Source: a virus | IMG/VR virus record: IMGVR_UViG_3300045945_000349 | Coordinates: 1 to 27,356 of that record | Length of the DNA stretch: 27,356 nucleotides | Strand: one strand, 5' to 3' | Shown: piece by piece, positions 2,033 to 24,886 of the stretch | How the letters are laid out: every line of letters begins with the position of its first letter | How positions within the stretch are numbered: the stretch's first letter is position 1 | Made by a program: the position numbers and the translations under genes | The notes under the pieces: model-generated | Database searches by the model: none | The model's input: only the letters and a program-made list of their open reading frames with translations | Told to the model about the DNA's origin: nothing

Positions 2033-2364
2033 CGCTGCACCCCCGCGGCCGCGAGCTGCGCCGCGTAGGAGCGCGTCCGCTCCTGGCAGGCCGGCGCGCC
2101 GCAGTCCACCAGGGCGCATTCCGGCGGCTCGGCCGGGCCGCGCAGCCGCGTCCCGCGGCAGAGATCGAGCCGCCGGTACGGCGCTACCAGGTCGCGGGCG
2201 TGCCCGAGAGCGCCGCTCCAGCGGCAGGCCACGCGCTGCGGCGCATCGTGCCGGCGTCGCGGCCGGGGCAGGGGCCCCTTCCCCTCCAGGACCGGCAGCG
2301 CCGCCTGCGGCGGGGCGGTCGAAGAGCGCCGGGAAGGCTGCTTTGCCCAGCCCGGCGCGCTCAC
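2029..2364 (-). CDS. Hypothetical small Cys-containing phage protein
   Basis: A 111-residue frame whose GTG overlaps the TGA of the recombinase gene and whose TGA overlaps the GTG of the next gene. Those two couplings fix the frame. The first 40 residues are Pro/Arg-rich and low-complexity. The second half has several Cys (ACRW, DLCRG, PECALVDCG, PACQER) that could bind a metal. No family is recognised. Placed directly after the integrase, it could be a recombination directionality factor or another accessory protein, but nothing in the sequence shows this. Confidence 0.55.
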   Translation of the reverse strand: MSAPGWAKQPSRRSSTAPPQAALPVLEGKGPLPRPRRRHDAPQRVACRWSGALGHARDLVAPYRRLDLCRGTRLRGPAEPPECALVDCGAPACQERTRSYAAQLAAAGVQR

Positions 2365-3902
2365 TGGAGCCCGCCCAGATCGAGGAGAATCCCTCCGGGG
2401 TGTGTCCCTACCGAGCGGAGGCGGTGACCGCGGCCCGGTAGCGACAAGAGCCGCAGCACCACGCCCGTGCAACGCGCGGCCGCGATCCCTGCGCGCTCGA
2501 AGAGAACGGCCTCGACCCCGGCCGCGAGGAGGCGGCGCTTCTCCGCCAGCTGCAGGAACGGCCAGGAGGCGAACGTGCTCGCCACCGCTGCCGCGATCTC
2601 CTCGGGGTCCGGGGTGTCGCCGGGCCCCGCCTCGAGATCGCGGCGCAGAGAGGCTTCTTGGCGCTCTAGCGATCGGATCCGGCCCTCGGCATCGGTCAGG
2701 GTGCGCAGGCCGCGCTCAAAAGAGGTCACGACGCGCTCGCGTTCGCGGCGGAGCTCCTCGAGGCGCTTCGTCCCGAGCTCCGGGTCGAGCTCGGCGACGG
2801 GCGCGGGCTCGAGCACCGCGGCGAGGGCGACCGCGAGGACCTCGGGATCGGCCAGAGCCCGGGCTACCGCGAGCTCGCCGGCCTGGTCGACCACCGCCTG
2901 GCCGAGCTGCCCCGTCGGGCACCCGCCGCGCTTCGTCGCCGTGCTGCAGCGGTACTTCCACCCCCAGCGCGCCAGGTGCGAGACGTAGAGCGGCGCGCCG
3001 CACAGCGCGCAGCGGGCCAGGCCGTAGAAGACCGCTGGCCCCCCGTCGCCGCGGCTCCGGCCACCGCGCCGACGCCGACCGTCGAGGATCTCCTGCACGG
3101 CTTCGAAGTCGGCAGGCGGCACGAGAGGCTCGGCGAAGACCGTCACCTCGAGGGGATCGGTGCGAGGGACGCACCGCTTGCCGATCCGCCGCAGCGCGTA
3201 GCGGCGCCGGCCGGCATAGATCGGGTTGCGGAGGAGATCCTTCACGCGCGTGCGGTCGAGGCCGAGCGTGCGCGCAAGCCGCGCGAAGTTGCGCTCGCCG
3301 GCGAGGACCTCGGCGAAGAGCCGGCGCACGATGCCCGCCTCGGGCCAGGTGTAGGACCACACGGGCCGGACCCCGCCCGCCTCGTCGCGCTCGAGGCGGT
3401 AGGCGACGGCCAGGGGGAGAGAGCTCGGCCCCTGCACGTGGCGCCCGGCCTTGCGGAGCTCCTCCTTCACCCGGTTGGCGCGCCGGGCGATGGCACGCCG
3501 CTCCATGCCGCCGAGCTCGCCGCGCAGCACCCCGAGGAGACCGCCCGTGTCCTCGGCCGGGTCGAGTACTCCCTCGCCGGAGAAGATCACCGACCCGGTG
3601 TCGGCGAAGCGATCGAGGATCGCGTAGTCCTCGAAGCGGCCGCGCCGGAAGAGCCGATCGAAGTCGACCACGACGACGCCGGCGATGCCGGGCTCCGCGA
3701 GCCGCTCGAGCACAGCGGCAAAGCGCGGCTCCTCGAGAACCTTTGCGCCGGAGACGCCGGCGAGCTCGACCCACTCGACGAGCTCGAGCTCGTGGCGGGC
3801 CGCGATGCGCGCGATCTCGGCGCGCTGCGCGGGCAGGCTCCCGCGGTCGGCGGCGGCCTGCGCCTCAGTGCTCACGCGAAGCAGCGCGATCGCCTGCCGC
3901 AT
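2361..3902 (-). CDS. Large serine recombinase (phage integrase)
   Basis: A 513-residue site-specific recombinase that would integrate the phage by a Ser-linked double-strand exchange. The N-terminal resolvase domain (about 1-145) begins MRQAIALLRVST with catalytic S11, and carries the VVVDFDRLFRR core and a GGMERRAIARRANRVKEELR E-helix. A recombinase domain follows (about 160-285), with a zinc ribbon next (C298, C301, C319, C328), a coiled-coil region (about 385-445) and a C-terminal tail. These are the usual parts in the usual order. The start at 3902 is chosen because the resolvase domain begins there and GAGGAGG lies just upstream; it overlaps the previous gene by 38 bases. No attP core is recognised next to it. 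Confidence 0.93.
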   Translation of the reverse strand: MRQAIALLRVSTEAQAAADRGSLPAQRAEIARIAARHELELVEWVELAGVSGAKVLEEPRFAAVLERLAEPGIAGVVVVDFDRLFRRGRFEDYAILDRFADTGSVIFSGEGVLDPAEDTGGLLGVLRGELGGMERRAIARRANRVKEELRKAGRHVQGPSSLPLAVAYRLERDEAGGVRPVWSYTWPEAGIVRRLFAEVLAGERNFARLARTLGLDRTRVKDLLRNPIYAGRRRYALRRIGKRCVPRTDPLEVTVFAEPLVPPADFEAVQEILDGRRRRGGRSRGDGGPAVFYGLARCALCGAPLYVSHLARWGWKYRCSTATKRGGCPTGQLGQAVVDQAGELAVARALADPEVLAVALAAVLEPAPVAELDPELGTKRLEELRRERERVVTSFERGLRTLTDAEGRIRSLERQEASLRRDLEAGPGDTPDPEEIAAAVASTFASWPFLQLAEKRRLLAAGVEAVLFERAGIAAARCTGVVLRLLSLPGRGHRLRSVGTHPGGILLDLGGLQ

Positions 3903-8763: not shown

Positions 8764-9029
8764 AGCACCCCCGAGCGCACCGGGCGACGCGGCATCTTGC
8801 AGCGGCCGCTTTCGGCGATCGCGTGCAGGGTTTCTTGCGCCTTGCTCTTTCCGCGCTGCACGGCGCAGGCGGCGGCGCGGACCGTGCGCTCGCCGCCCGT
8901 CTTGAAGCAGCGCAGCGTCACCGCATCGCCTTCGGTCCGCAGCACTTCGCCCCGGATGCCGCGCTCGCGCACGTAGACGCGGGCGCCGGCGACGATCGGC
9001 CAGCCGGAGACGTCGAGAGGGGCGCTCAC
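8760..9029 (-). CDS. Small beta-barrel (SH3/KOW-like) protein
   Basis: An 89-residue protein starting at a GTGA overlap. Residues about 8-45 (WPIVAGARVYVRERGIRGEVLRTEGDAVTLR) have the alternating pattern of a small SH3- or KOW-like barrel: G-x-R-V-x-V, a turn with RGEV, and a closing strand. The second half is basic and helical (QRGKSKAQETLHAI). Such proteins can bind RNA or DNA, but function here is unknown. Confidence 0.58.
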   Translation of the reverse strand: MSAPLDVSGWPIVAGARVYVRERGIRGEVLRTEGDAVTLRCFKTGGERTVRAAACAVQRGKSKAQETLHAIAESGRCKMPRRPVRSGVL

Positions 9030-9559
9030 GAGAGCACCTCCAGCAGCGCGTCGGCCTTGTCGCGGATCTCGGCCAGCTCGGAGCAGTGATCCGTCGCGCA
9101 CCACGCGAACGAGATCCGGCCGAAGCGCTCCAGCACGTCGACCACTTCGGCGCGCCGCTTGTCGTCGAGCGCGCCGAGCCGCGTGCGCGCGTCGAGCTGG
9201 CACCCCTCGCAGCACGGCTGCGCGAGAAGCCGCAGGCTCGTCGTGCCGCGGCAGAAGACGCAGCGCCCCTCCGCCTCGGAAGGGTCGTTCCGGAAGGCCG
9301 CCAGCTCGGCGTCGGAGTAGTCGGAGAGGCGGTCGGCGCGCTCCTGGCGCTCCCACTCCGCGTCCTCGGCGGCGCGCTCCTGCGCCTCGCGCGCCGCATG
9401 CTCGCGCTTGGCGGCTTCGCGGGCGTCCTGCGCTTCGTCGTCGGAGAGGAGATCCGAGCACGCCGGGCAGAGCTGCCAGTCGGTGCGCACCGGCGCCGTG
9501 CGGCAGGCGGGGCAGAGGGAAGGGGAGGCGGGAGGGAGGGAGAGGGTCGGGGCGGCCAT
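9026..9559 (-). CDS. First gene of the leftward early operon: two-knuckle Cys-rich protein
   Basis: A 177-residue protein with an N-terminal zinc ribbon (CPACRTAPVRTDWQLCPAC, about residues 16-34), a highly charged helical or coiled-coil region (about 40-80, rich in Glu, Ala and Arg), and a second Cys cluster (CVFCRG, then CCEGC). A final helical part contains WCATDHC. This suits a protein with two metal-binding modules joined by a helix. It has a GGAAGG ribosome site about 7 bases before the ATG. Being first after the putative early-left promoter and operators, it should be among the earliest proteins made. Function unknown; a regulatory or host-takeover role is only a guess. Confidence 0.7.
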   Translation of the reverse strand: MAAPTLSLPPASPSLCPACRTAPVRTDWQLCPACSDLLSDDEAQDAREAAKREHAAREAQERAAEDAEWERQERADRLSDYSDAELAAFRNDPSEAEGRCVFCRGTTSLRLLAQPCCEGCQLDARTRLGALDDKRRAEVVDVLERFGRISFAWCATDHCSELAEIRDKADALLEVLS

Positions 9560-9571
9560 CTTGAGGTCCTT

Positions 9572-9619
9572 CCTTAACAGGTAAGGCGGACCTTAACACA
9601 GATGGCCAGGGGCCAGCAA
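9572..9619 (-). promoter_or_regulatory. Early leftward promoter region with operator palindromes
   Basis: On the minus strand, TTGCTG (9619-9614), a 17-base spacer and TTAAGG (9596-9591) make a weak promoter match. Overlapping the -10 is TAAGGCGGACCTTA (9582-9595), a palindrome of form TAAGG-N4-CCTTA that recurs at the rightward early promoter. Next to it CCTTAACAGGTAAGG (9572-9586) is a second inverted arrangement, and CCTTAACA occurs twice 19 bases apart. It reads as a repressor-controlled early promoter. Confidence 0.6.
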
Positions 9620-9637
9620 GAGGAAAGTAGGGCTGGC

Positions 9638-10066
9638 CTAAACTTTCTTGGAACCCCTGCGGGTGAGAGGGGTTACGGGAGGAACCGGCCGAGGCGTGGA
9701 CCGGGAGCGCAGCTTGTCGAGCACCTCGAGCACTTCGCGCTGCGCGTCTGCGTCATCAGCCAGGTAGCGCGCGCGATCGTCGCCCAGCCTGTCGTAGATG
9801 CGCCCGAGGATGGCGCCCAGCCCCTTTGAGCCTGTCAACTTCCGGCCCATGATCCACTCCCAGTCCTCCCCCGTAGCATCACCTATGAGCTGCGCACTTT
9901 CATCCGACGGTGTGACAACTCCGGTCACCCACTGACTGACAGCCGCTGGTGTCACCGCAAGCTCTCTTGCTAGCCAGCTCTGGTCTCTCTCCAGGTAGGC
10001 AAGCACACGCCGAATCCGGTTGCCGATCTCGGGGTCAGGAGGGACTCGCCTCCGCTTGGTCGCCAT
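9638..10066 (-). CDS. XRE-family phage repressor (CI-like, no protease domain)
   Basis: A 142-residue protein with an N-terminal helix-turn-helix: NRIRRVLAYLERDQSWLARELAVTPAAVSQWVTG, about residues 16-49, with TPAAVSQW as the turn and recognition helix. The rest is helical with a basic Pro-rich tail; no LexA-type peptidase motifs are visible, so induction by RecA-type self-cleavage is unlikely. It is divergent from a small Cro-like gene, with operator-like palindromes on both sides, the classic lysogeny-switch layout. It is transcribed leftward like the early-left operon, but separated from it by its own stop and the 9572-9619 promoter region. Confidence 0.82.
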   Translation of the reverse strand: MATKRRRVPPDPEIGNRIRRVLAYLERDQSWLARELAVTPAAVSQWVTGVVTPSDESAQLIGDATGEDWEWIMGRKLTGSKGLGAILGRIYDRLGDDRARYLADDADAQREVLEVLDKLRSRSTPRPVPPVTPLTRRGSKKV

Positions 10067-10100
10067 GCATAGATCCTAACTGCTCGCGTTCATTGCGGTT

Positions 10101-10114
10101 TTAGGGAGGCCTGA
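10101..10114. promoter_or_regulatory. Degenerate operator between repressor and Cro-like gene
   Basis: TTAGGGAGGCCTGA keeps the core xxAGG-N4-CCTxA of the TAAGG-N4-CCTTA palindromes found at the two early promoters, with changes at positions 2 and 13. It lies inside a longer imperfect palindrome, GTTTTAGG...CCTGAAAAC. It could be a weaker site used for autoregulation of the repressor. Confidence 0.4.
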
Positions 10115-10123
10115 AAACGATGC

Positions 10124-10161
10124 TTGCAGGATTTCCATCCCGTGTGATAAGGGTCCCCTTA
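10124..10161 (+). promoter_or_regulatory. Early rightward promoter with overlapping operator
   Basis: TTGCAG (10124-10129), a 16-base spacer and GATAAG (10146-10151, 4 of 6 to the consensus -10) precede the Cro-like ATG at 10163. TAAGGGTCCCCTTA (10148-10161) overlaps the -10 and ends two bases before the start codon. It shares the TAAGG-N4-CCTTA form with the leftward promoter. A transcript from this promoter would be nearly leaderless. Confidence 0.58.
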
Positions 10162-10162
10162 C

Positions 10163-10393
10163 ATGAAGGGGAATCGCGTCGTCAAAAGGCTTCGAACGGA
10201 GCTGGGGTTCACGCAGGCCGAGTTCGGCGAAGAGGTAGACCTCGCCGGCGTCTACGTCGCTCAGATCGAAACCGGGGTGCATGGGCTCGGCCGCGATGCG
10301 GCGCTGAAGATCCTCGACCGCTTCCGGGGCGAGATGATGGAGCGGCGGATCACCCTCGAAGATCTGCTGCGCGGCGAGGGCCGCGCGGCGTGA
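10163..10393 (+). CDS. Cro-like XRE helix-turn-helix regulator
   Basis: A 76-residue protein that is essentially one helix-turn-helix domain (about residues 5-56): VVKRLRTELGFTQAEFGEEV, then LAGVYVAQIETG as turn and recognition helix, then a C-terminal helical tail. It is divergent from the repressor and follows directly on a palindromic operator, so it most likely shares the repressor's operators as a Cro-type protein. No ribosome site is visible before the ATG, consistent with a leaderless or very short leader mRNA. The stop lies 20 bases from the stop of the convergent immunity gene. Confidence 0.8.
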   Translation: MKGNRVVKRLRTELGFTQAEFGEEVDLAGVYVAQIETGVHGLGRDAALKILDRFRGEMMERRITLEDLLRGEGRAA

Positions 10394-10412: not shown

Positions 10413-10838
10413 CTACTGGCGCGCCACCGTCGGTGGAGACGCCTTCGGCACCGCGGTCAGCGACCAGACGAGCGCGGCGATCCAGCCGAGCGCCGTCCAG
10501 CCGAGCAGCGCGTTCAGCGCGAAGATCGCCGGCCAGCTCGGGTGCTCGCGCCAGGAGGCGATCAGCGTCGGGAAGAAGTACGCCGAGATTGCGGCCAGGA
10601 GGATCAAGAGCGCCGTCCCGAGGGCCATCGGCGACGACTCCGACGGGAGCGGCGTGGGCTTCGGTACGGGCGCAGCCAGTGGGGCAGGGATCGGGTCCAC
10701 CTCGCGCTCTCCGGTGCACCTCCAGGGCGCCGCGCCTTCGCCCGCCCAGATCGTGCCGTCTTGGCAGCGGACCACTCGGGCACCGGCAGGCACGGCTAGC
10801 AGCAGCAAGGCGGCGAGGGGGAAGAGCGCGCTCGGCAT
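10413..10838 (-). CDS. Superinfection immunity membrane protein (moron-like)
   Basis: A 141-residue protein on the strand opposite to the surrounding early genes. Residues 1-21 look like a signal peptide or first membrane helix (MPSALFPLAALLLLAVPAGA). Then a small motif with two Cys, CQDGT...PWRC (C25, C41), and a Pro-rich linker. The C-terminal half has two membrane segments, with YFFPTLIASWREHPSWPAIF between them and FALNALLGWTALGWIAALVW at the end. This matches the superinfection-immunity (T4 Imm-type) family, which blocks DNA entry of incoming phages. GGAGGAG lies 4-5 bases before the ATG. It is probably expressed by the lysogen. The Cys motif is an addition to the usual two-helix form. 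Confidence 0.85.
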   Translation of the reverse strand: MPSALFPLAALLLLAVPAGARVVRCQDGTIWAGEGAAPWRCTGEREVDPIPAPLAAPVPKPTPLPSESSPMALGTALLILLAAISAYFFPTLIASWREHPSWPAIFALNALLGWTALGWIAALVWSLTAVPKASPPTVARQ

Positions 10839-11040: not shown

Positions 11041-11346
11041 ATGCAGGACGGGCCCATGCGCCTTGCCGCCTGGCAGGCGATCAGCGAAACGGGGGCTCAC
11101 CAGGAGGTGGCTCGCCTCCTGAGAGCGCGCATGCGCTGGAAGTGCTCCGAACGCTCGGCAGTCGCGCGCCTTTCCCAGATGCTGAACCCACGCGACCCGC
11201 ACCAGCTTCCTGCCGACGCGCTTCTCGACGTGATCGACGCAACAGGGCGCGACCCCTTCACGCCGATCCTTCTGCGCCGCGCGCTTCGGAAGAGGCCGCT
11301 GCGGGCAGGCGAGCGGCCGAGGGTGCGGCGCTCTGAAGTGTCCTGA
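11041..11346 (+). CDS. Small regulator-like phage protein
   Basis: A 101-residue protein. The ATG at 11041 is chosen because AGGGGA lies 6 bases upstream; an in-frame ATG at 10996 has no ribosome site. The sequence, RLAAWQAISETGAHQEVARLLRARMRWKCSE..., continues with ARLSQMLNPRDPHQLPADALLDVIDATGRD. A short helical domain with LNP...HQL.....DVIDATGRD resembles the DNA-binding CII-like regulators of temperate phages, which control the lysis-lysogeny choice. The match is by eye only, so the class is tentative. It lies between the Cro-like gene and the replication region, where CII-type proteins are normally found. A basic C-terminal tail is visible. Confidence 0.6.
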   Translation: MQDGPMRLAAWQAISETGAHQEVARLLRARMRWKCSERSAVARLSQMLNPRDPHQLPADALLDVIDATGRDPFTPILLRRALRKRPLRAGERPRVRRSEVS

Positions 11347-11395: not shown

Positions 11396-11734
11396 ATGGG
11401 CAAGAGGAACGGTAAGGCCACAGGGTTCGAGGGCATCGTCACCAGCGTGCGCGACGCCTTCGCCGAGGAGCTGGAAGACGCGCTTCCCGAGCTCGACCAG
11501 GCGGTGAAGGCGGGCGGCGGAGAGGGCAGCTTCTCCTGCACGCTCCAGATCAAACCCTGCAAGCGCACGGCGGGCTTCCTCGCCACGCTGACCTCGCGCG
11601 TTCGCGCGCCGCGCAAGCCGCGGCCCTTCGATCTGCGCATCGGCGACGAGGGCCAGCTCGAGCTGGGCTTCGACCCGACGCCGCGCGACGAGGGCCAGGG
11701 CGACGGGGAGCACGAGGGCGCAGCCGCGCACTAA
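11396..11734 (+). CDS. Conserved phage early protein, unknown function
   Basis: A 112-residue protein with a GGGGGGTGAAAG ribosome site before the ATG. An N-terminal helix (FEGIVTSVRDAFAEELEDAL) precedes a beta-rich part, GSFSCTLQIKPCKR...FLATLTSRVRAPRKPRPFDLRIGDEGQLEL, and a charged low-complexity tail. The order helix, beta-sheet with T-I-K-like strand, and a basic loop before a final strand ending in GQL is a recurring form among small early phage proteins. No function is known to me. A strongly structured region follows. Confidence 0.62.
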   Translation: MGKRNGKATGFEGIVTSVRDAFAEELEDALPELDQAVKAGGGEGSFSCTLQIKPCKRTAGFLATLTSRVRAPRKPRPFDLRIGDEGQLELGFDPTPRDEGQGDGEHEGAAAH

Positions 11735-11739
11735 AGCGA

Positions 11740-11841
11740 GGTTCGGCGGCGCCGTCGGCACCCAACTCCTCCCCTCGCGATCTCGGGTCCCGCGCGGGGA
11801 GGAGGCTCTTCCACCGAAGAGCATCCGCGGCGCCGCCAACC
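11740..11841 (+). other. Predicted three-way-junction element before the replication gene
   Basis: Three nested stems can be read directly. An outer stem pairs GGTT-(C)-GGCGGCGCCG at 11740-11754 with CGGCGCCGCC-AACC at 11828-11841 (14 pairs, one bulged C). Inside it CTCCTCCCC (11766-11774) pairs with GGGGAGGAG (11796-11804), extended by CGCG/CGCG past one mismatch. CTCTTC (11806-11811) pairs with GAAGAG (11816-11821) over a CACC loop. The element ends about 20 bases before the replication-gene GTG. It may be a structured mRNA leader or part of a replication origin. Confidence 0.55.
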
Positions 11842-11861
11842 AGCCGGACGGGGGGTGGGGC

Positions 11862-13079
11862 GTGGCGCGAAAGCGCTATCCGAGCGACGAAGCGCGGCTG
11901 CGCGTGCGGCCGCATGTCCGGGTTCACTTGACGGTGGCGACCCACCGCAAGATCGCCGCCACCTGGGCGCAGCCCGAGCTGCGCGGGATGCTCGTCGAGC
12001 TCTGGCGCATCGCCCGGGAGGCGCACGCGGGGAAGACCCGGGACGTGGTCGCGCTCTCCCCGGCGGCAGTCCGTTCGATCACCGGGAAGGAGCGTCACGC
12101 CTTCGGCGTGCGGGCCCTCGTCGAGCTCTGCGAGGGGGTCGGATACCAGGTCTCCACCGACCCGGCTGCGATCCCGTGCGGACCGGCACCGACCGCTCAC
12201 CGGGTCGTCACCGATCCGCACCGCCTGCTCACCGCCTCTTCACCGATCCCGCACGGGGTCGGCGCCGTGTTCGTGTGGATTCGCAACTTCGCGAAAAAGC
12301 AAGACTTGGACTCCGCGCCTCGTGGAGTCACTCCGCGCAACTCCGCGCCCTCCGAGTCCGAGTCCGAGTCCGAGTCCGAGAGGAGTAGGAATACGGAGTA
12401 TGAGCGCGGAGGCGGGGCGCACTCCGCGGAGTCCCGGGACGCCGATCGGAGCGCCGCCGAGCCGGCGCGCACGCACCCGGGTTCGCCTTCGGCGGGGGAG
12501 GAGACGGAGCCGGATCGGACCGACCCGCCGGAGGGCCGAGCCGCCGCACCGCCGGACCGGCAGCCGAGCCCCGAGCCCGAGACGCCGGAAGCCCGATCCG
12601 CTCTGGAGGACGAGGAGGATCCGACCCGGGGGATCGATCCGGCAAAGCTCGCTCGCCTCCTTGCCGGCCGTCCCGATCCCCCCGGCACGACCACGCGCGC
12701 GTGGATCGAGGCGCATCTTCCGCACCTGGTCGCCGCTGCGGAGCTCGAGCTCGTAGCGGCGGGCGTAGAGCCGACACGCCGCGCGCTCGAGGCGGCGGTG
12801 CGGGATCGGCTCTTCGCCTTCCACGCGCAGGAGCTGCGCAGCGGCGCACGGGACGCTTCGCGCGACCGTGATCGACCGAAGCCCGAGCGGCGGTTCGAGA
12901 CCGCCGAGGAGACGAGCGCAGCGCTTGCAGCGCGCCGCGAGGAAGCGCGCGCATCCGAGGAGCCGCAGGTCTGCGCAGAGGCCAGTTGCGGCGCGTCGGC
13001 CACGCGCGTGCGCAAGCGGCGCTGGCTCTGCGATGAGCACTTCAACGCGGCTTCGGCCGCACAACCGGCGGCGGTGTAG
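11862..13079 (+). CDS. Replication-initiator-like protein with internal repeats
   Basis: A 405-residue protein with GTG start after GGGGGGTGGGG. The N-terminal 100 residues (HVRVHLTVATHRKIAATW, LRGMLVELWRIAREAH, VVALSPAAVRSITGK, AFGVRALVELCEGVGYQ) look like the winged-helix domain of phage replisome organisers. The middle, about 160-250, is low-complexity: a run of alternating Ser and Glu, then Pro/Glu/Arg-rich sequence, and the DNA encoding its start carries short repeats. A helical part (about 265-345) and a C-terminal Cys/His cluster (CAEASCG...CDEHFN) follow. Replication initiation is inferred from the domain order, the repeats and the position in the early region. No helicase or primase motifs are present. 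Confidence 0.68.
   Translation: MARKRYPSDEARLRVRPHVRVHLTVATHRKIAATWAQPELRGMLVELWRIAREAHAGKTRDVVALSPAAVRSITGKERHAFGVRALVELCEGVGYQVSTDPAAIPCGPAPTAHRVVTDPHRLLTASSPIPHGVGAVFVWIRNFAKKQDLDSAPRGVTPRNSAPSESESESESERSRNTEYERGGGAHSAESRDADRSAAEPARTHPGSPSAGEETEPDRTDPPEGRAAAPPDRQPSPEPETPEARSALEDEEDPTRGIDPAKLARLLAGRPDPPGTTTRAWIEAHLPHLVAAAELELVAAGVEPTRRALEAAVRDRLFAFHAQELRSGARDASRDRDRPKPERRFETAEETSAALAARREEARASEEPQVCAEASCGASATRVRKRRWLCDEHFNAASAAQPAAV
12310..12428 (+). other. Candidate replication origin inside the initiator gene
   Basis: ACTCCGCG occurs at 12310-12317, 12330-12337, 12340-12347 and 12421-12428; the first three are spaced 20 and 10 bases apart, in phase with the helix. Between the third and fourth copies lie five tandem TCCGAG units and then an A/G-rich, lower-GC stretch (about 12381-12404). 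Iterons next to a less GC-rich segment within the initiator gene is the arrangement of lambda-type origins. Confidence 0.45.
12351..12380 (+). repeat. Five perfect TCCGAG hexamers
   Basis: The hexamer TCCGAG is repeated five times without interruption and encodes alternating Ser-Glu. It lies within the candidate origin. It could be a protein-binding array, or a simple expansion tolerated in a disordered linker. Confidence 0.85.
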
Positions 13080-13107
13080 GCCGCGCGCCATCGAAGTGAG
13101 CGAGCGA

Positions 13108-13296
13108 ATGGGAAGCTACGAGTTCAGTTATAGCCTCGGGCAGCGCGTCCGAATCGTGGTGAGCGGCGAGGAAGGCGAGGTGATCGGCCTCGCGATCTAT
13201 TCGAACGCGATGCCGAGTGCTCTCATACGGTACAAGGCCGCGGACGGGCGCGCGCTCGATTCCTGGTGGTGCTGCAGCGCACTGGAGGCCGCGTGA
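13108..13296 (+). CDS. Small SH3-like phage protein
   Basis: A 62-residue protein. A GTG at 13096 in the same frame is an alternative start. The sequence reads LGQRVRIVVSGEEGEVIGLAIY...LIRYKAADGRALDSWW, a compact all-beta pattern (G-x-x-V-x-I, a turn with E-x-G-x-V, a closing strand with RY-K and a W-W end) seen in many tiny phage proteins. Function unknown. Its stop overlaps the start of the next gene (TGATG). Confidence 0.6.
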   Translation: MGSYEFSYSLGQRVRIVVSGEEGEVIGLAIYSNAMPSALIRYKAADGRALDSWWCCSALEAA

Positions 13297-13472
13297 TGGT
13301 GGACGAAGGACCGTTCACGACCGCGCAGCAGATCGGCCTGGTGGGAGGTGCGCTGGTGCAGCTCGGCAAGAAGAAGGCCGACGGCACGGCGAGCAAGAGC
13401 GTGGTGGTGCCGACGCTCTCGGCGATCATCGCCGAGCTGCGCGAGATCCGCGCGCGGGTGAAGGCCGAGTAG
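13296..13472 (+). CDS. Small phage protein, unknown
   Basis: A 58-residue frame. ATG at 13296 shares its A with the upstream TGA; GTG at 13293 is an alternative. It reads FTTAQQIGLVGGALVQLGKKK...SVVVPTLSAIIAELREIRARVKAE: a glycine-containing helix, then a C-terminal amphipathic helix. No membrane segment is convincing and no family is recognised. Confidence 0.5.
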   Translation: MVDEGPFTTAQQIGLVGGALVQLGKKKADGTASKSVVVPTLSAIIAELREIRARVKAE

Positions 13473-13473
13473 C

Positions 13474-13917
13474 GTGGCGCGCTCGGGCTTCACGCTCGAG
13501 GGGCTTGCAGCGCGGGAGCGGAGGCTCGGCCTCGGCGCCTCCGCGCTGCGGCCTGCGCACGTGGCGCCGGCGGTGCTCGCTGCGGCGAAGCCTCCGGCGC
13601 GGGGCCGCGCGCCGCACCGGATGAACGGCCTCGAGGCGGACTACGCGCGCCTCCTCGAGCTGCGGGTGCGCGCGGGAGAGGTGCTCTGGTGGAGCTTCGA
13701 GGGCTTCCGGCTGCGCCTGGCGGAAGGCACGTGGTTCACGCCGGACTTCGCCGTGCTGCTCGCCACCGGCGTGCTCGAGTTCCACGAGACGAAGGGCTTC
13801 ATGCGCGAGGCGGCGCGGGTGCGGCTGCGGGTGGCTGCGGGCATGTATCCCTGGGGCTTCGTGCTGGTGCGGCGTGGCAAGGGCGGCGGCTGGAGCTTCG
13901 AGCGGGTGCCGGCGTGA
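13474..13917 (+). CDS. DUF1064-type PD-(D/E)XK nuclease-like protein
   Basis: A 147-residue protein starting with GTG one base after the previous stop. After a 45-residue basic linker the core begins MNGLEADYARLLELRVRAGEVLWWSFE, then RLRLAEGTWFTPDFAVLLATG and VLEFHETKGF. E54, D91, E105 and K107 give the E...PD...E-x-K pattern of PD-(D/E)XK nucleases, and the string closely resembles DUF1064 proteins of temperate phages (T7 endonuclease I-like fold). A role in cutting branched or foreign DNA is likely from family knowledge, not proven. It is coupled (GTGA) to a zinc-knuckle protein. Confidence 0.82.
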   Translation: MARSGFTLEGLAARERRLGLGASALRPAHVAPAVLAAAKPPARGRAPHRMNGLEADYARLLELRVRAGEVLWWSFEGFRLRLAEGTWFTPDFAVLLATGVLEFHETKGFMREAARVRLRVAAGMYPWGFVLVRRGKGGGWSFERVPA

Positions 13918-14072
13918 AGGCGTGCGCGCGGCCTGGTTGCGAGAGCGCGCCGCGCACGGGCCAACGCTACTGCAAGGCGCACCACGCGGAGGCGGAGCGC
14001 GGCTATCGCGCGCGCATGCGCGCCGAGCTTCGGCGCCTGCGCCGGCTGCTTGCGGCGGTGAAGCAGCCGTGA
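13914..14072 (+). CDS. Tiny zinc-knuckle protein
   Basis: A 52-residue protein starting with GTG at a GTGA overlap. CARPGCESAPRTGQRYCKAHHAE gives a C-x4-C...C-x2-H cluster that could bind one zinc, followed by a very basic helix. Such proteins often flank nuclease genes in phages and may bind nucleic acid. Family not named. Confidence 0.6.
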   Translation: MKACARPGCESAPRTGQRYCKAHHAEAERGYRARMRAELRRLRRLLAAVKQP

Positions 14073-14284
14073 GCCCGGATCGCGCAGGAGCCACGATCTC
14101 GGCTCGGGCCGAGGCGCAGTACCTCTCGACCCGAGATCTCGCGGCACTGCTCGGGCGGAGCACGACGAAGCGCGGGCTGGAGCGCCTTCGGGTGCAGCTA
14201 CATCGCTTCCGCGTCGCGTACCGTGGTCATGCGCTGCGGCCGCGCTGGCACGTGGACACGGCGCGCACGCTGCTCGCGCGCTGA
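14069..14284 (+). CDS. Small helix-turn-helix DNA-binding protein
   Basis: A 71-residue protein starting with GTG at a GTGA overlap. YLSTRDLAALLGRSTTKRGLERLRVQLHRFRVAYRG has the pattern of a MerR- or excisionase-type winged helix (Y-L-S-x-x-D-L-A-x-L-L-G-x-S), with a basic wing and WHVD near the end. It is the last gene before the packaging module, so it may be a late regulator, or help recognise the packaging site. The class is fairly clear; the role is inferred. Confidence 0.65.
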   Translation: MSPDRAGATISARAEAQYLSTRDLAALLGRSTTKRGLERLRVQLHRFRVAYRGHALRPRWHVDTARTLLAR

Positions 14285-14307
14285 AGCGTTCCACGTGCAA
14301 CCTAATC

Positions 14308-14327
14308 CCCCCTCCCGCGGGAGGGGG
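14308..14327. terminator. Perfect 20-bp palindrome between early and packaging genes
   Basis: CCCCCTCCCG followed by its exact reverse complement CGGGAGGGGG (14308-14327), a perfect dyad that can form a G+C-only hairpin with almost no loop. It is not followed by a T run, so a Rho-independent terminator is only one option. Directly upstream of the terminase genes, it could also mark a packaging (cos/pac) site. Confidence 0.45.
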
Positions 14328-14382
14328 CGCTGACAAGCCCCCCGCGCTGGTGATACACGCTGCCCTCAGGGGGTGATCGAGT

Positions 14383-14865
14383 GTGTCGCGCTTCAGCGCG
14401 AGCGAGCTCGACCAGGAGGCGGCCGACCGGATCCTCGAGCGGCTCGTCGAGGGCGTCCCGGGCGGCGACGGGAAGCCCGCTAGCCTCGCTTCGATCCTGC
14501 GCGCAGCGCGCGCGGCCGGCGAGGCGATGCCGAGCTGGCGGACGGTCTTTCGCTGGCTGCACGCGTTCCCCGAGTTCGCGGCCGCCTACGCCCGTGCTCG
14601 CGAAGAGCAGGCCGAGGCGATCTTCGACGAGATCCTCGACGTTGCGGACGACGCTGGGGACGATCCGCAGAGCCGGCGCGTGCGGATCGACGCGCGCAAG
14701 TGGGCCCTTGGCCGGATGCTTCCGAAGCGCTTCGGCGACCGGCTGGCGGTGACCGGTGGCGACGGCGGCCCCCTCGAGATCGAGCATGCCGTCGAGATCG
14801 ACGCCCTCGACGCTCTCCTCGATCGTGTCCAGGCTCGCGAAGCTCCCGAAGGCGGCGCGCCGTGA
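14383..14865 (+). CDS. Terminase small subunit
   Basis: A 160-residue protein with GTG start after CAGGGGGTG. Residues about 30-75 are a helix-turn-helix region with PSWRTVFRWLHAFPEFAAAYARAREEQAEAIFDEILDVADD; then VRIDARKWALGRMLPKRFGD. This is the pattern of Sf6- and related terminase small subunits, which bind phage DNA and recruit the large subunit. It is directly followed by the large subunit, with overlap. The identification combines the motif string and position. Confidence 0.82.
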   Translation: MSRFSASELDQEAADRILERLVEGVPGGDGKPASLASILRAARAAGEAMPSWRTVFRWLHAFPEFAAAYARAREEQAEAIFDEILDVADDAGDDPQSRRVRIDARKWALGRMLPKRFGDRLAVTGGDGGPLEIEHAVEIDALDALLDRVQAREAPEGGAP

Positions 14866-16174
14866 GTTCCTCGCGCAGCTCAGCGAGCGCGAGCGCCTCG
14901 CGGTACTCGAGGAGCTGTACCGCTGGGAACGCTGGGCGCGGTCCGAGCAGCTCGAGCCGCCGGGCGAGTGGTCGGTGTGGCTCAACCTGGCCGGCCGCGG
15001 CAACGGTAAGACGCGCACGCTCTGCGAGTGGGTCCGCTACCGCGTGGAGCGCTGCGGCGCGAGGCGCCTCGTGATCGCGGCGTCTACCTCGGCCGACGTC
15101 CGCGACACCGTCGTGGAGGGCGAGAGCGGCCTCCTGGCGGTCTTCCCGCCGCACCGCCGGCCGCTCTACGAGCCCTCGAAGCGGCGCGTCACCTTCGCGG
15201 GTGGCGCGCGGGCGGTGCTCCTCTCGGCCGATCGGCCCGACCGCTTCCGCGGTCCCCAGTGCGACACGGCGGCGGCCGACGAGCTGGCGGCGTGGCGGTA
15301 CTCCGAGGCCTGGGAGAACCTGCTGCTCGGCCTGCGGCTCGAGACGTCGAAGGGGGTCGGCCCGCGCGCCGGCGTCGCCACGACGCCGCGCCCGACGCGG
15401 CAGATTCGTGAGCTGAAGGCGGACCCGGCGACGTGCACGACGGTGGGTCGCACCGTGGACAACCGGGGGAACCTGGCCCCCGCGTTCTTCGACCGGATCA
15501 TCCGGCGCTACCAGGGGACGCGGCTCGGCCGGCAGGAACTCGATGCGGAGATCCTCGAGGAGATCGAGGGCGCGATCGTGACGTTGGCGATGATCGACGA
15601 CGCGCGGGTGGCCGAGCTGCCCGAGCTCGGGCGCGTCGTCGTGGCGGTGGATCCGCCGGGCGGGCACAAGGCGACGAGTGCGGAGGCCGGCATCGTGGCG
15701 GCGGGGCGTGGTGCGGGCTCGGACGCCGAGCAAGGCTACGTGCTCGAGGACCGTTCGCTGCGCGGGACGCCGGACGAGTGGGCGCGCGCGGCGATCCGGC
15801 TGCACCGCGAGCTCGACGCCGACGCCATCGTGGCCGAGGTGAACCACGGCGGCGACATGGTGAAGGACGTGATCCGCTCGCGGGACCGGAGCGTGCGCGT
15901 GATCGAGGTGCGCGCGAGCCGCGCGAAACACGTGCGCTTCGAGCCCATCGGCGCGCTCTACGAGCAGTTTCGAATCCATCACCTCGGCACCTTCGCTGCG
16001 CTGGAAGATCAGGTCTGCGGCTTCACCTCGACCGGTTACGAGGGCGCCGGGTCCGAGGACTCCGAGAATCCGGCTTCGCCGGATCGCGCGGACGCGCTGG
16101 TCTGGGCGCTGACGGAGCTGCTCGTCTCGCGCGGCTCGGGCTTCGAGATCTACGCGGGGGAGGCGGCGGCGTGA
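14825..16174 (+). CDS. Terminase large subunit (packaging ATPase-nuclease)
   Basis: The motor that packages DNA into the prohead. With the GTG at 14825 it is 449 residues and overlaps the small subunit by 41 bases; in-frame starts at 14786 (ATG) or 14756 (GTG) are possible, so the exact start is uncertain. Walker A is GRGNGKT (57-63), Walker B ends in D-E (152-153, in the AADELAAW string), and a coupling ATT motif is suggested by GVATTPRPTRQ. The nuclease domain has VVAVDPPG (D276), IVAEVNHGGD (E338) and DRADALVW (D420/D423), the usual acidic triad. All key residues appear intact. GTGA couples it to the portal gene. Confidence 0.92.
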   Translation: MSRLAKLPKAARREFLAQLSERERLAVLEELYRWERWARSEQLEPPGEWSVWLNLAGRGNGKTRTLCEWVRYRVERCGARRLVIAASTSADVRDTVVEGESGLLAVFPPHRRPLYEPSKRRVTFAGGARAVLLSADRPDRFRGPQCDTAAADELAAWRYSEAWENLLLGLRLETSKGVGPRAGVATTPRPTRQIRELKADPATCTTVGRTVDNRGNLAPAFFDRIIRRYQGTRLGRQELDAEILEEIEGAIVTLAMIDDARVAELPELGRVVVAVDPPGGHKATSAEAGIVAAGRGAGSDAEQGYVLEDRSLRGTPDEWARAAIRLHRELDADAIVAEVNHGGDMVKDVIRSRDRSVRVIEVRASRAKHVRFEPIGALYEQFRIHHLGTFAALEDQVCGFTSTGYEGAGSEDSENPASPDRADALVWALTELLVSRGSGFEIYAGEAAA

Positions 16175-18279
16175 GCGCAGCGCACGTGCAGCTCGGGGAC
16201 CTCTACGTGCCGCGCAGCATGGTTGACGACCTGGTGGCGCGGCGCGTGGAGTCGGAGCGCGCCGAGACTCCGATCACGTTCCACGGCCCGCGCGTCTCGC
16301 TGCGCGGGCTCGGGCGCCAGCCGAGTACACAGAGCCTCCTCGAGGAGACGCGCTCCTGGGCGGCGATCGCAGCGAGCCGCGTCGCCTCGCGCGTGCAGTC
16401 GATCGAGCCGCTGCTCTTCGTGCGCCGGCGCGTGGCGGAGGGAACGCAGGAGGAGGAGCAGCTCGACGAGCACGTGGCGAAGGAGGTGCTCGACCGGCCG
16501 AATCCGATCTTCTCGCGGCGGCTTCTTGCCCGGCTCCAGGCGTTCCACTTCCTCCAGTGCGGGGAGTGGTACTTGCAGAAGCTGCGCGATGGGATCGGCG
16601 TCGTGCGCGAGCTCTGGCCGCTCCCGCCGCAGAATGTCGAGCCGATCTCCGATCCGCAGCGCGTGATTGGCGGCTACAAGGTGACGGACGGCTACGGGCG
16701 GCAGACGATGCTGCCGGCCGAGGACGTGATCCGCTGCTGGTCTCCGGATCCGCTCACGCTCTTTACGGCGATGGGCGCGCTCGGTCCGCAGGCGGTCGAG
16801 TGGGACACGCTGCGCTTTCTCTCGGATCACCTCCGCGCGTTCTTCGAGAGCGATGCGACGCCGCGCGTCGTCCTGACGGCCGACAAGGACGTGACGATGC
16901 CTTCGCCCGACGATGCGCAGGCGAAGGCGTTCTATGCGCACTGGCGAAACCGCTTCCACAAGGTCCGCGGCGATCTGCGCGGGCTGCCGGTGCTCTTGCC
17001 GAGCGGCGTCTCGCCCGAGGTGCTCGACGCGCACGGTGGCGATGCGGCGCTGGTCGAGCTGGACCGCCAGCGCAGCAAGCAGATCCTCTCGGCCTACGGC
17101 GTGCCGGAGTCGATCGCGGGGCTGACGGAGCACGTGAACCGCGCGAGCGCGGAGACGAACCTCTACGTCTTCGATCAGAACACGATCGCGCCGCTCCTCG
17201 ACCTCTTCGCCGAGGCCTACACCGAAGGTCTGGCGCGCGAGTACGATCCGCAGCTCTTCGTTCGCTATGAGGACTTCGTTGCGCCCGACAAGACCTTCGA
17301 CCTCCTGCGCGAGCAGCAGGACCTGGTGCACAAGGTGCGCAGCGTGCAGCAGGTCTTGCGTGACCGCGGCGCGGATCCCGAGGACGCGCCCTGGGGTGAG
17401 CTGCCGGTGGGGACGCTGGCGGACGAGCCCTACACCGGCGAGGAGCGGGAGGATTCTCCCGAGGACGCGGCAGACCTCGCGATTTCTGGCGGCGTCAAGG
17501 TGGCGCCGTCGGCCTCGGTCCGAACCCCTTCCTACCAGCGGATCGAGGCCACTTCTCCAGACGCTGCCTGGGCGCGCCTCCTAGCTGCGGAGCGGCAGTT
17601 CGTCTCTCGCTTCGAGCGGGCGATGGCGACGGTCTTCGATGCGCAGCGCAAGGCGGCGCTCGCGCGGCTTCGCGCGGTGACGCGGGCGCGCGTCTCGGCA
17701 ACCGACGTCTTCGACCCGAACGCCTGGGGCGCGCTTTTCGAGCGTGTGGTGCAGCCGATCCGCCGGCGCGCGTTCGCTTCCTCGGGCCGTGAGGCGCTGC
17801 ATGCGGTGGGGAGCGATGTCGGCTTCACGCTGAAGGACCACGCGGCGGCGCTGCTTGCGCGCCAAGGCGCGCAGCTCGTCTCGAAGGTGAATGCGGTGAC
17901 GCTCGCGCGGCTGCGAGAGGAGCTGTCCGCGGGGACGCTCGAAGGCGAGGGCGTCGATCAGCTCGCCAAGCGGATCTCGGGCGTCTTCCAGAATCGAAAG
18001 CGCGCGCGCACGGTGGCGCGGACGGAGCTTTTGAAGGCGCACGAGTCAGGGCAGCTCGAGGGCTTCCGGCAGGGCGGCGTGCCCGGCAAGCAATGGAACA
18101 CGTCGCGCGACGATGCGGTGCGCGACTCCCACGAGATCGACGGCCAGGTGCAGGCGCTCGAAGAGGACTTCGAGTTGGCCTCGGGGAATCGCGCTGCGTA
18201 CCCGGGCGACGACTCGCTGCCGGCCGACGAGGTAGTCAACTGCCGGTGCTTCGTGACACCGGTACTCGAGGAGGACTGA
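16171..18279 (+). CDS. Portal protein fused to a MuF-like head morphogenesis domain
   Basis: A 702-residue protein starting with GTG at the terminase stop (GTGA). The first about 420 residues match an HK97-type portal: EETRSWAAIAASRVASRVQS, the LWPLPPQNVEPI segment, YGRQTMLPAEDVIRCWSPDP, GVPESIAGLTEH...NLYVFDQNTIAPLLDLFAEAYTE. The C-terminal part from about 490 is helical and ends in the MuF-type signature: VARTELLKAHESGQLEGF, KQWNTSRDDAVRDSHEIDGQ, YPGDDSLPADEVVNCRCFVTP. The two are normally separate neighbouring genes; here they are one frame with no stop. The portal part forms the DNA channel; the MuF-like part is probably a minor capsid or ejected protein. Confidence 0.9.
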   Translation: MSAAHVQLGDLYVPRSMVDDLVARRVESERAETPITFHGPRVSLRGLGRQPSTQSLLEETRSWAAIAASRVASRVQSIEPLLFVRRRVAEGTQEEEQLDEHVAKEVLDRPNPIFSRRLLARLQAFHFLQCGEWYLQKLRDGIGVVRELWPLPPQNVEPISDPQRVIGGYKVTDGYGRQTMLPAEDVIRCWSPDPLTLFTAMGALGPQAVEWDTLRFLSDHLRAFFESDATPRVVLTADKDVTMPSPDDAQAKAFYAHWRNRFHKVRGDLRGLPVLLPSGVSPEVLDAHGGDAALVELDRQRSKQILSAYGVPESIAGLTEHVNRASAETNLYVFDQNTIAPLLDLFAEAYTEGLAREYDPQLFVRYEDFVAPDKTFDLLREQQDLVHKVRSVQQVLRDRGADPEDAPWGELPVGTLADEPYTGEEREDSPEDAADLAISGGVKVAPSASVRTPSYQRIEATSPDAAWARLLAAERQFVSRFERAMATVFDAQRKAALARLRAVTRARVSATDVFDPNAWGALFERVVQPIRRRAFASSGREALHAVGSDVGFTLKDHAAALLARQGAQLVSKVNAVTLARLREELSAGTLEGEGVDQLAKRISGVFQNRKRARTVARTELLKAHESGQLEGFRQGGVPGKQWNTSRDDAVRDSHEIDGQVQALEEDFELASGNRAAYPGDDSLPADEVVNCRCFVTPVLEED

Positions 18280-18283
18280 AGTC

Positions 18284-18436
18284 ATGGGTCATCGACGCCA
18301 GCGCTTCGAGGACGAGGAGACGAAGCCGATTCCGCAGGAGCCGACGGAGTCCGAGCCGGCGGAGCCCGAGCCGGCGCATCCGGCACGCGGCAAGCGGCGC
18401 GGCGCGGCTTCCGAGCCGACGCCCGAGGCCGGCTGA
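18284..18436 (+). CDS. Tiny acidic Pro/Glu-rich protein
   Basis: A 50-residue frame with a clear GAGGAGG ribosome site and a TGATG overlap with the next gene. It is almost entirely Glu, Pro, Ala, Ser and Arg (EPTESEPAEPEPAHP), so probably disordered. No function is recognised. Position between portal and protease suggests a small virion or assembly factor, or a spacer. Confidence 0.5.
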   Translation: MGHRRQRFEDEETKPIPQEPTESEPAEPEPAHPARGKRRGAASEPTPEAG

Positions 18437-18966
18437 TGCGCCGCTCACCTTCAAGCCCGGCGAACGATCCGTTCGGCCTCTTCCTCGTCTCCGGTGCGAC
18501 GGACGGGACGACGAACCCGCAGACGCTCGGCGGCGGCGGGTTCAACCTGATCGACTCGCTGGGGTTGAACGCCTATCCGGCGGAGCCGAAGACGGCGGCG
18601 GCGCTCGGGCTCTTCACGCTCGATCAGCTCTCGCGCGCCGTGCTGACGGCGTGGAAGACCGGCGGCACGGGCTCGTGGGCGCTGGCGATCGAGATGAGCC
18701 GCAACGCGGGCAGCAACTGGACGGCGGTCACGCGGCTCGCGCTGGCGGCGATTCCGAGCCGTGCGGCTGCGCTGCCGCAGGTGATCGAGAACCCCTTCCC
18801 GGCGGATTTCATGCGCACGCTGGGCGTGGACGTGAACGACGTGGTGAGCGTGCGCGCGCGGGTTACGCCTGGCCAGGCGGCGGCGCAGACGGTCGCGGTC
18901 GTACTGTCGCTTCAGCCTGGCCCCGGCTCGGGCTTCGGCGGCGATCGCGGCCGGATCTACGGCTAG
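18436..18966 (+). CDS. Possible virion protein, beta-rich, unknown family
   Basis: A 176-residue protein sharing an A with the upstream stop (TGATG). It is rich in Gly, Thr, Ala and aromatic residues: FGLFLVSGATDGTTNPQTLGGGG, FTLDQLSRAVLTAWKTGGTGSWALAIEMSRN, then VVSVRARVTPGQ near the end, consistent with a beta-rich virion protein such as a decoration protein. It lies between the portal and protease genes. I do not recognise the family. Confidence 0.55.
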   Translation: MRRSPSSPANDPFGLFLVSGATDGTTNPQTLGGGGFNLIDSLGLNAYPAEPKTAAALGLFTLDQLSRAVLTAWKTGGTGSWALAIEMSRNAGSNWTAVTRLALAAIPSRAAALPQVIENPFPADFMRTLGVDVNDVVSVRARVTPGQAAAQTVAVVLSLQPGPGSGFGGDRGRIYG

Positions 18967-18981
18967 CGGGGGAGGGCGGCG

Positions 18982-20052
18982 ATGCGCTTCAACCGGAACG
19001 TCGAGATCGAGCGCGCCGAGCTGGGCGAGGATGCCAGCTTCCCGGTCACGCTCTTCACCGATGGCGAGGCGAGCGACGGGCACATCTTGCACGTGGCCGG
19101 CGCGCGCACCGCGCCGCGCATGCCGCTCTTCGTGAACCACTGGGCCGACCCGACCATGACCATGGGGAGCCTGACGGATCCCAAGCGCAGCGAGCACGCG
19201 ATCCGCTACCGCGCGCAGATCGACCTCGGCGCACCCGAGAGCGCCGTGGCAGCGATCCGGCGCGACGTGGCCTACATGATCGGCCAGGGCCACGTGCGCA
19301 GCATGAGCGGCCGGTGGGACGCCGATCCGAAGGACGTCGTGCCGCGCACGGCGCTTCCGGCCGATCACCCGGCCTACGTCGACCCGGCGAAGGAGCCGGC
19401 AGGGCGCAAGCGCTGGGGACTCTACTTCAAGCGCTGGACCGCGCTCGAGGGCTCGATCGTCGGGCTGGGCGCCGATCCCAAGGCGCTGATCGGCCGGAGC
19501 GAGGATGCGAGTCTGCCGGAGCCGGTGCGGGCCTTCTGGCGCGCCGAGGCGCAGGCGCAGCCGCAGAGCGAGCTCGAGCACCTCTACGCGGAGCTGCGCC
19601 TCCGCTACCAGGCCATGCGCGGCGCGGGCGCGAGCTTCGCGGACGTGCTGAACGCGCTGCAGGGCGTGCTCGGGGCCGAGGAGGCCGGGACGCTCGAGCG
19701 CCTAGAGCGCGAGGGGCTGCCGGGCATCTGGCTTCCGGCCGCGCTCCTCGAGCGCCTCCATGGCGAGCGTGCAGCGTTCACCGATGCCATCGCCGCTCTC
19801 GAAGCGGTGCTCATTTCCCGGGAAGACGCCGATCATGCCGGCGCCGACCCTGCTGCCGAGCCGACGGAAGAGTCCGACCCGGCTCCGCCCGAGCGCGCAG
19901 CGCTCGAGGCTCTCTCGCATGCACGCGCTGGAAGTGTCGCCGCGATCTCCGCGGCGGAGTTCTTCGAGCGCCTCGAATCGAAGATGAAGAGCAGCAGTTC
20001 CGTCATCGCGGCCGACGTGGTTCGGCGGGTGACGGGGAGGGTTTCAGCATGA
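18982..20052 (+). CDS. HK97-type prohead protease with C-terminal scaffold-like domain
   Basis: A 356-residue protein with GGGGGAGGG before the ATG. The N-terminal about 170 residues fit a phage prohead protease (U35-type): PLFVNHWADPTM with H53 as probable catalytic His, GSLTDPKRSEHAIRYRAQIDL, then GHVRSMSGRW with S107 or S109 as the probable nucleophile. Residues about 200-356 are helical, acidic and Ala/Glu-rich (ELEHLYAELRLRYQAMRGAG, AALEAVLISREDADHAG), like a scaffold or delta domain, so protease and scaffold appear fused. ATGA couples it to the major capsid gene, the usual order. Confidence 0.82.
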   Translation: MRFNRNVEIERAELGEDASFPVTLFTDGEASDGHILHVAGARTAPRMPLFVNHWADPTMTMGSLTDPKRSEHAIRYRAQIDLGAPESAVAAIRRDVAYMIGQGHVRSMSGRWDADPKDVVPRTALPADHPAYVDPAKEPAGRKRWGLYFKRWTALEGSIVGLGADPKALIGRSEDASLPEPVRAFWRAEAQAQPQSELEHLYAELRLRYQAMRGAGASFADVLNALQGVLGAEEAGTLERLEREGLPGIWLPAALLERLHGERAAFTDAIAALEAVLISREDADHAGADPAAEPTEESDPAPPERAALEALSHARAGSVAAISAAEFFERLESKMKSSSSVIAADVVRRVTGRVSA

Positions 20053-21413
20053 AGATCAAGGTTCGACTCCGCGCCAGCGGCGCGGAGGTGGAGATCGAAG
20101 AGAGCGCCTTCGACACGGCGCTGCACGAGCGGATCACTCCGCGCTCGATCGGCGACATGCCGGCCGAGGAGTTCATGACGCAGCTGGCGACGGTCGGCGC
20201 GCGCCAGACGGGCGAGGTGGTGGGGCAGATCCTCACGCAGCTTGGCGTCGGCCAGGTGAACCGCGGGAGCCTTGCGACCACGCCGGGCACGCAGCCGCGC
20301 CAGTCGGCCGATGCCGGCGCCGTCGAGGCGCAGCGGATCGAGCGGGTGCGACCGTCATGGGAGCGGCAGTACCTGACCCTGCCCGAGTCCGAGCGGAAGG
20401 TCCGCACGGTCGAGGGGGATCTCCTCGTGCTGCGCTGGGCGCAGGCGGTGGTCGACAAGGACTACGCGCGCGCCGAGCGGATCATCCGGGAGAGCGATCC
20501 CGTCTACTCGCGCGCGCCGCTCGCCGAGGGCGCGGCCGCGACGGGCGGGAACCTCGTCCCGACGCCGCTCGCGAGCGTGATCCTCATGAAGCGCGATGCC
20601 CACGAGCGGATCGCGCCGCGCAGCATGCGGTTCACGAGCCCCGCCGACACGCTCGACGTGCCGACCGAGGCGACCGTGGGCGACGTGGCGGCGACGGCCG
20701 AGGCGACCGCGCCGAGCGAGACCGACTCGACGTTCGGGCTGGTGACGCTCACGAAGAAGAAGGTCATGCGGGCGTGCCGCGCGTCGCGCGAGCTCCTCGC
20801 GGACATCTCGCAGGCCTTCTCGCTGGTGACGATCCTCTCCGATCAGGTGAGCCGGCGCCTGGCCGTCTTCAGCGACGGGCAGGCGGCGGTCAACGGGAAC
20901 GGCACTCCGCCCAACTGGACGTCGGCCATCCAGGGCGCGTCCATCACGGCGGTCACCGGCAGCGGCGGCGCGATCACGCGGAAGAAGATCAAGGACCTGC
21001 TGCTCGGGCTGCCGTCCGAGTGGCGCAACGGTCCGGGCGTCTTCTTCTTCGGCAACGCCGCGGTGACGGGCTTCCTCTCCGACGTGGTCGACACGACGGG
21101 CCGGCCGATCTGGCTGAACCAGACCGACCCGGCTCGCCCGGTGGGTGACGTCGGCAACGCCGTGGGGCTCGTCGAGGGGATCCCGTACCTCGAGGTGGCG
21201 CCCTTCTCGACGAACATCCTGTACGTCGGCGTCCTCGCCGAGGGCTACGGGATCCTCGAGGACGAGGCGCTGCTCGTCGAGGCCTCGACCGAGGCGTCGG
21301 ACGTCTTCCTGAAGCACCAGGTTCTGTGGAAGTTCATGCAGCGGCGCGACGGTGCGGTTCTCCGCACCGACTGCTTCCGCAAGACCGACGCGGCGGTCCT
21401 GGCCCCGGCCTGA
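20049..21413 (+). CDS. Major capsid protein (HK97 fold)
   Basis: A 454-residue protein starting with the ATG in ATGA at the protease stop. The N-terminal about 110 residues are helical and would be the delta domain removed by the protease. The mature part carries typical HK97-fold strings: EGAAATGGNLVPTPLASVIL, a DTLDVPTEA...GDVAATAEA E-loop-like region, FGLVTLTKKKVMRACRASRELLADI, INPUT-like pocket segments FSDGQAAVNGNGTPPNW, GIPYLEVAPF and KFMQRRDGAVLRTDCF near the end. This is the main shell subunit. A strong hairpin follows the stop, so its mRNA may be processed or attenuated separately. Confidence 0.9.
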   Translation: MKIKVRLRASGAEVEIEESAFDTALHERITPRSIGDMPAEEFMTQLATVGARQTGEVVGQILTQLGVGQVNRGSLATTPGTQPRQSADAGAVEAQRIERVRPSWERQYLTLPESERKVRTVEGDLLVLRWAQAVVDKDYARAERIIRESDPVYSRAPLAEGAAATGGNLVPTPLASVILMKRDAHERIAPRSMRFTSPADTLDVPTEATVGDVAATAEATAPSETDSTFGLVTLTKKKVMRACRASRELLADISQAFSLVTILSDQVSRRLAVFSDGQAAVNGNGTPPNWTSAIQGASITAVTGSGGAITRKKIKDLLLGLPSEWRNGPGVFFFGNAAVTGFLSDVVDTTGRPIWLNQTDPARPVGDVGNAVGLVEGIPYLEVAPFSTNILYVGVLAEGYGILEDEALLVEASTEASDVFLKHQVLWKFMQRRDGAVLRTDCFRKTDAAVLAPA

Positions 21414-21437
21414 TCCGAGGTGAGGGGGTGAGCTGAC

Positions 21438-21471
21438 GGGTGCCCCGGGGAGGCGACTCCTCGGGGCACCC
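21438..21471 (+). terminator. Strong hairpin with GCGA tetraloop after the capsid gene
   Basis: GGGTGCCCCGGGGAG (21438-21452) pairs with CTCCTCGGGGCACCC (21457-21471); 14 pairs are Watson-Crick and one is a G-T wobble. The GCGA loop is a GNRA tetraloop, which is unusually stable. There is no following U run, so attenuation or mRNA stabilisation of the capsid transcript is more likely than full termination. Confidence 0.6.
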
Positions 21472-21495
21472 AAGGCGCTTTCGAGGGGGTGAGAG

Positions 21496-23425: not shown

Positions 23426-23427
23426 CC

Positions 23428-23838: not shown

Positions 23839-23850
23839 GGGGGATTCGGC

Positions 23851-24870: not shown

Positions 24871-24886
24871 AGGGGGTGCGCCCGCC

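Follow-up and report, generated by a model that had tools for sequence, protein, structure and literature searches.

In phage lambda, related dyads read by CI and Cro lie at both early promoters (OL and OR), with three sites to each promoter, the repressor and cro genes are divergent, and an operator adjoins the repressor gene. The immB region of the telomere phage PY54 also has divergent repressor and cro genes and a palindrome near the repressor gene; there, the strongest binding of CI is over the cro promoter, Cro binds OR3 only, and the cro and cI mRNAs are leaderless (PMC4488713). Mycobacteriophage BPs uses gp33, a small repressor unlike lambda CI, carries a palindrome at PR between the divergent early and repressor promoters, distributes its operators, built of paired 12-bp half-sites, over five loci, and has an immunity that depends on integration (PMC4557955).

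Here we describe a locus that resembles each of these in part, found in a viral contig of 27,356 bases (the window, meaning the whole stretch that was analysed, to which all window counts refer). With lambda it shares the divergent repressor and Cro-like genes, the related dyads at both predicted early promoters and an operator adjoining the repressor gene, but it has one strong site per early promoter instead of three, a different operator sequence, no detected peptidase domain in its repressor, and no other genes separating the left operator from the repressor gene. PY54 is an unrelated phage with another operator sequence, and has a single recognisable operator with no OL partner, whereas its CI binding over the cro promoter matches the repressor binding predicted here, and its leaderless cro has a counterpart in the near-leaderless Cro-like gene predicted here (PMC4488713). 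The small repressor and the palindrome between divergent promoters recall BPs, although the putative operators described here occupy one locus only, and the integration dependence of BPs immunity is a further difference (PMC4557955). Two general traits of a CI/Cro-type immunity region are present, namely a repressor gene divergent from that of a small helix-turn-helix (HTH) lytic regulator, and shared dyads at the early control regions that are rare elsewhere. In its predicted working the arrangement resembles a lambda-type switch; the phage is nonetheless not a member of the lambdoid group, since it lacks tripartite operators of the OL1-3/OR1-3 kind (each side has one or two sites), has no detected cleavable repressor, and carries a serine recombinase instead of the tyrosine integrase that is a lambdoid trait.

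Two rare palindromes beside a divergent regulator pair

The pattern TAAGG-N4-CCTTA occurs exactly twice in the window, as TAAGGCGGACCTTA (9582-9595, OL1) and TAAGGGTCCCCTTA (10148-10161, OR1), where shuffles lead one to expect 0.00 copies. An initial annotation had quoted these two sequences, a relaxed copy with two mismatches, TTAGGGAGGCCTGA (10101-10114), and a half-site cluster, CCTTAACA (9572); all four lie where it had placed them, and its observation that the window holds no other exact copy is borne out. Allowing up to two mismatches yields five matches in the window against 1.18 expected, with no wide scatter: four fall within 9582-10161, leaving one at 8678 that is probably fortuitous. 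The half-sites TAAGG and CCTTA are not in themselves unusual, as the seven in the entire window are about the number found in shuffles, but five of the seven lie between 9572 and 10161. The coordinates of all features are given in Table 1.

Table 1. Sites, candidate promoters and genes of the locus, in window coordinates
Feature	Position	Strand	Description	Basis
Large serine integrase	2361-3902	-	leftward operon, far end	
First leftward-operon gene	9026-9559	-	zinc-ribbon-like protein	ORF list, weak Pfam matches
Possible extra left site	9562-9576	.	TGAGG-TCCTT-CCTTA, N5 spacer	inference
OL1	9582-9595	.	TAAGG-CGGA-CCTTA, perfect 5+5 dyad upstream of leftward operon	exact match, dyad rank
Candidate early-left promoter	9590-9619	-	TTGCTG-N18-TAAGGT, -10 inside OL1	graded scan
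Doubtful weak left site	9628-9641	.	TAGGGCTGGCCTAA, two mismatches	mismatch scan
Putative repressor	9638-10066	-	142 aa, XRE-type HTH	phrog_2328 and HTH_3 matches
OR2	10096-10119	.	24-bp dyad CGGTTTTAGGGAGGCCTGAAAACG, 8 of 10 pairs	dyad rank, relaxed-core match
Candidate early-right promoter	10124-10151	+	TTGCAG-N16-GATAAG, -10 overlaps OR1	graded scan, inference
OR1	10148-10161	.	TAAGG-GTCC-CCTTA, perfect dyad	exact match, dyad rank
Cro-like XRE protein	10163-10393	+	76 aa	Pfam HTH_3, 26.6 bits, over cut-off
Superinfection-immunity protein	10413-10838	-	convergent, just past Cro-like gene	Imm_superinfect, 55 bits
Small protein	11044-11346	+		phage regulatory protein CII (Phage_CP76), weak sub-threshold match, E=0.039

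In a ranking of every N4-spaced dyad of the window in which A:T pairs carry a weight set by composition, OL1 and OR1 jointly take rank 1 for 5-base arms. In shuffles of the two intergenic stretches that preserved dinucleotides, a perfect dyad with 5-base arms and equal spacing common to both stretches arose once in 20,000. The likeness of OL1 and OR1 extends over 23 nucleotides, of which 19 agree (TGTG-W-TAAGG-NN-C-N-CCTTAC-N-TG), in the same orientation relative to the early promoter on both sides; such an asymmetry would be expected if promoter and operator elements were superimposed. The promoter sequences upstream of the two operators show no significant similarity. A single base separates the end of OR1 from the start codon of the Cro-like gene.

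Around the relaxed copy between the divergent genes (core TTAGG-GAGG-CCTGA) lies OR2, which is a longer dyad, different from OL1 and OR1, and ranks third in the window among N4 dyads with 10-bp arms. Its consensus, TTTNAGG-N4-CCTNAAA, matches only OL1, OR1 and OR2 when up to three mismatches are allowed. The relaxed core TNAGG-N4-CCTNA has three copies in the window (OL1, OR1 and 10101-10114) against 0.12 expected, and when the two intergenic stretches were shuffled locally 20,000 times, no shuffle contained two or more, statistics that are somewhat flattering because this core was picked after inspecting the three sites; the dyad ranking and the shared-dyad shuffle test are independent of it. 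OR2 is centred 41.5 bp ahead of the start codon of the repressor gene, similar in placement to the site at which lambda CI, itself made from a leaderless mRNA, activates its own synthesis. That OR2 might serve to activate the repressor gene here is speculation by analogy.

Further sites on the left are less distinct. The 9572 half-site forms part of a copy with an N5 spacer, TGAGG-N5-CCTTA, which overlaps the ribosome-binding region of the gene that opens the leftward operon; the predicted fold of the left leader (9555-9645, minus strand) pairs around this region too. A second candidate, at 9628-9641, overlaps the repressor stop codon and lies 46 bp from OL1, close to the 47 bp that separate OR2 from OR1, a coincidence of about 1e-4 in local shuffles that was picked after the fact. 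It is a poor dyad (rank 1003 in the N4 ranking), and its role as an operator is doubtful.

The sites frame a divergent pair of HTH proteins, one of 142 aa on the minus strand and one of 76 aa on the plus strand. The longer matches phrog_2328, a transcriptional repressor family (E=3.6e-9 in PHROGs), and HTH_3 at a level under the Pfam cut-off (E=5.6e-4). Its N-terminal HTH is its sole match in Pfam and PHROGs, in which no C-terminal peptidase domain of the S24/LexA type was detected, and so self-cleavage in the manner of lambda is unlikely. Judged by eye, the two proteins have different recognition helices, and a common target for both is therefore not assured; single-sequence structure models of the two were left unused for their low confidence (pLDDT 51 and 63). 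The leftward operon, starting from 9559, encodes Pam3 gp33/gp34-like proteins, an SNF2-type helicase and then a large serine recombinase with Resolvase, Recombinase and zinc-ribbon domains. As this integrase ends the operon, integration may come under the control of OL1. On the other side, a transcript from the early-right promoter would cross the superinfection-immunity gene antisense.

The initial annotation had read the palindromes as operators lying over both early -10 boxes. As a prediction, shared operators at both early control regions of the divergent XRE pair hold up well, whereas the overlap with the -10 boxes, though plausible from the sequence, is not established: a consensus scan found no sigma-70 promoter at OL1 or OR1, and the candidates that do overlap the two sites score weakly in a graded scan, the left one as the top leftward candidate near OL1 and the right one as the third-best local rightward candidate. 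If the rightward candidate is correct, transcription would begin about 5 nt ahead of the ATG of the Cro-like gene, making its mRNA near-leaderless.

A predicted switch and competing explanations

We predict, with a probability of about 85%, that the palindromes serve as operators for the CI/Cro-type lysis-lysogeny switch of a temperate phage. The XRE repressor encoded leftward would bind TAAGG-N4-CCTTA as a dimer at OL1 and OR1; at OL1 it would obstruct RNA polymerase at the early promoter of the leftward operon, which leads to the helicase and the serine integrase, and at OR1 it would likewise block the promoter from which the Cro-like gene is transcribed rightward. With both early promoters blocked, the prophage would be kept silent. 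At OR2, between the divergent genes, the repressor, the Cro-like protein or both would set the level of repressor synthesis. The sites with their positions and rarity, the gene layout and the HTH assignments are observed, and we infer the pairing of proteins with sites, the positions of the promoters and the sign of regulation. In favour of the switch, the repressor and Cro-like pair adjoins the sites, and the phage carries genes for a serine integrase and for superinfection immunity; against it, each early promoter has a single strong site (OL1 or OR1) and not a cooperative group like those of lambda, and no homologous immunity region was found in the collections searched.

How the two proteins divide the sites allows a refinement of the switch that is not its opposite, and to which we give rather less than even odds: the repressor would read OL1 and OR1, while the Cro-like protein would mainly read OR2 and so shut off the repressor gene. 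PY54 offers a precedent, its Cro binding the cI-proximal site only (PMC4488713). OR2 is likewise the site closest to the start of the repressor gene, and it has outer arms of its own (TTT..AAA) and is a better long dyad than OL1 or OR1; however, the AGG-N4-CCT core common to the three suggests that one protein could read them all. More tentatively still, the locus may be a minimal switch, with one strong operator read by the repressor at each early promoter, a separate, longer dyad read by the Cro-like protein before the repressor gene, a near-leaderless cro with a single base between operator and start codon, and an induction that does not proceed by RecA-dependent cleavage.

Explanations that dispense with a phage repressor fare less well than the switch. 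The palindromes might act as RNA hairpins that terminate transcription or hide the Cro-like gene's ribosome-binding site, and it is true that OR1 places AAGGG 9 nt ahead of the Cro-like ATG, that the dyad arms pair in part in a 61-nt right leader, and that the 91-nt left leader folds more stably than its shuffles (z -3.4). In the predicted folds of the left leader and of a short right leader, however, the TAAGG-dyad arms are not paired with each other; the right leader does not exceed its shuffles in stability, there is no T-run terminator at OL1 or OR1, and OR2 lies outside the ribosome-binding region of the Cro-like gene, all of which makes this reading improbable. To the same low degree we credit binding by a host regulator, such as a LexA-type protein of the host, which would suit a repressor with no detected self-cleaving peptidase domain, whose induction must come from elsewhere; but the sites coincide precisely with the module of the phage's own two regulators, with no copy anywhere else in the phage sequence searched, and the pattern is not known to fit any LexA box. 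Chance similarity is the least probable explanation of all: the intergenic stretches have 51-56% GC in a phage of 71% GC, which raises AT-containing motifs locally, but local dinucleotide shuffles almost never give the pattern.

Relatives of the phage and the meaning of the predicted operator

The record IMGVR_UViG_3300045934_000208 (21,893 bases) is 100% identical to positions 11631-26171 of the window over the 14,541 bases compared, and would carry the sequence of the same phage about 6.2 kb beyond the window; that extension contains no operator copy with up to two mismatches. Apart from this contig, the relatives of the terminase and the helicase among viral contigs are 32-48% identical. 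The exact operator is absent from the 44 loci examined outside the window and from the 11 whole records searched. An extended form, TGTGNTAAGG-N4-CCTTAC, has 15 matches in the viral contigs, one exact copy each and mostly in sequences of 37-51% GC, which were probably fortuitous, the sole one inspected (L084) lying within a coding region.

The two regulators are similarly isolated. Neither has a relative among the viral contigs, and the Cro-like protein has none in the phage collection, where the repressor has one HTH match of 42 residues at 40%; the repressor also has no relative in the plasmids or the genome contigs. A search of 398 genomes with the regulators gave one remote HTH match, and one with the phrog_2328 family, which matched 345 of the 398, was discarded as too broad. 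A literature search for the operator sequence returned nothing relevant.

The general picture of phage switches is unchanged by this locus, in which the operator sequence is new while the kind of element and its arrangement are ordinary. What it offers is a specific operator sequence for a temperate phage that has no close regulator relatives in the collections searched, and this predicted operator in turn predicts the specificity of the phage's immunity and the operons that its repressor would silence.
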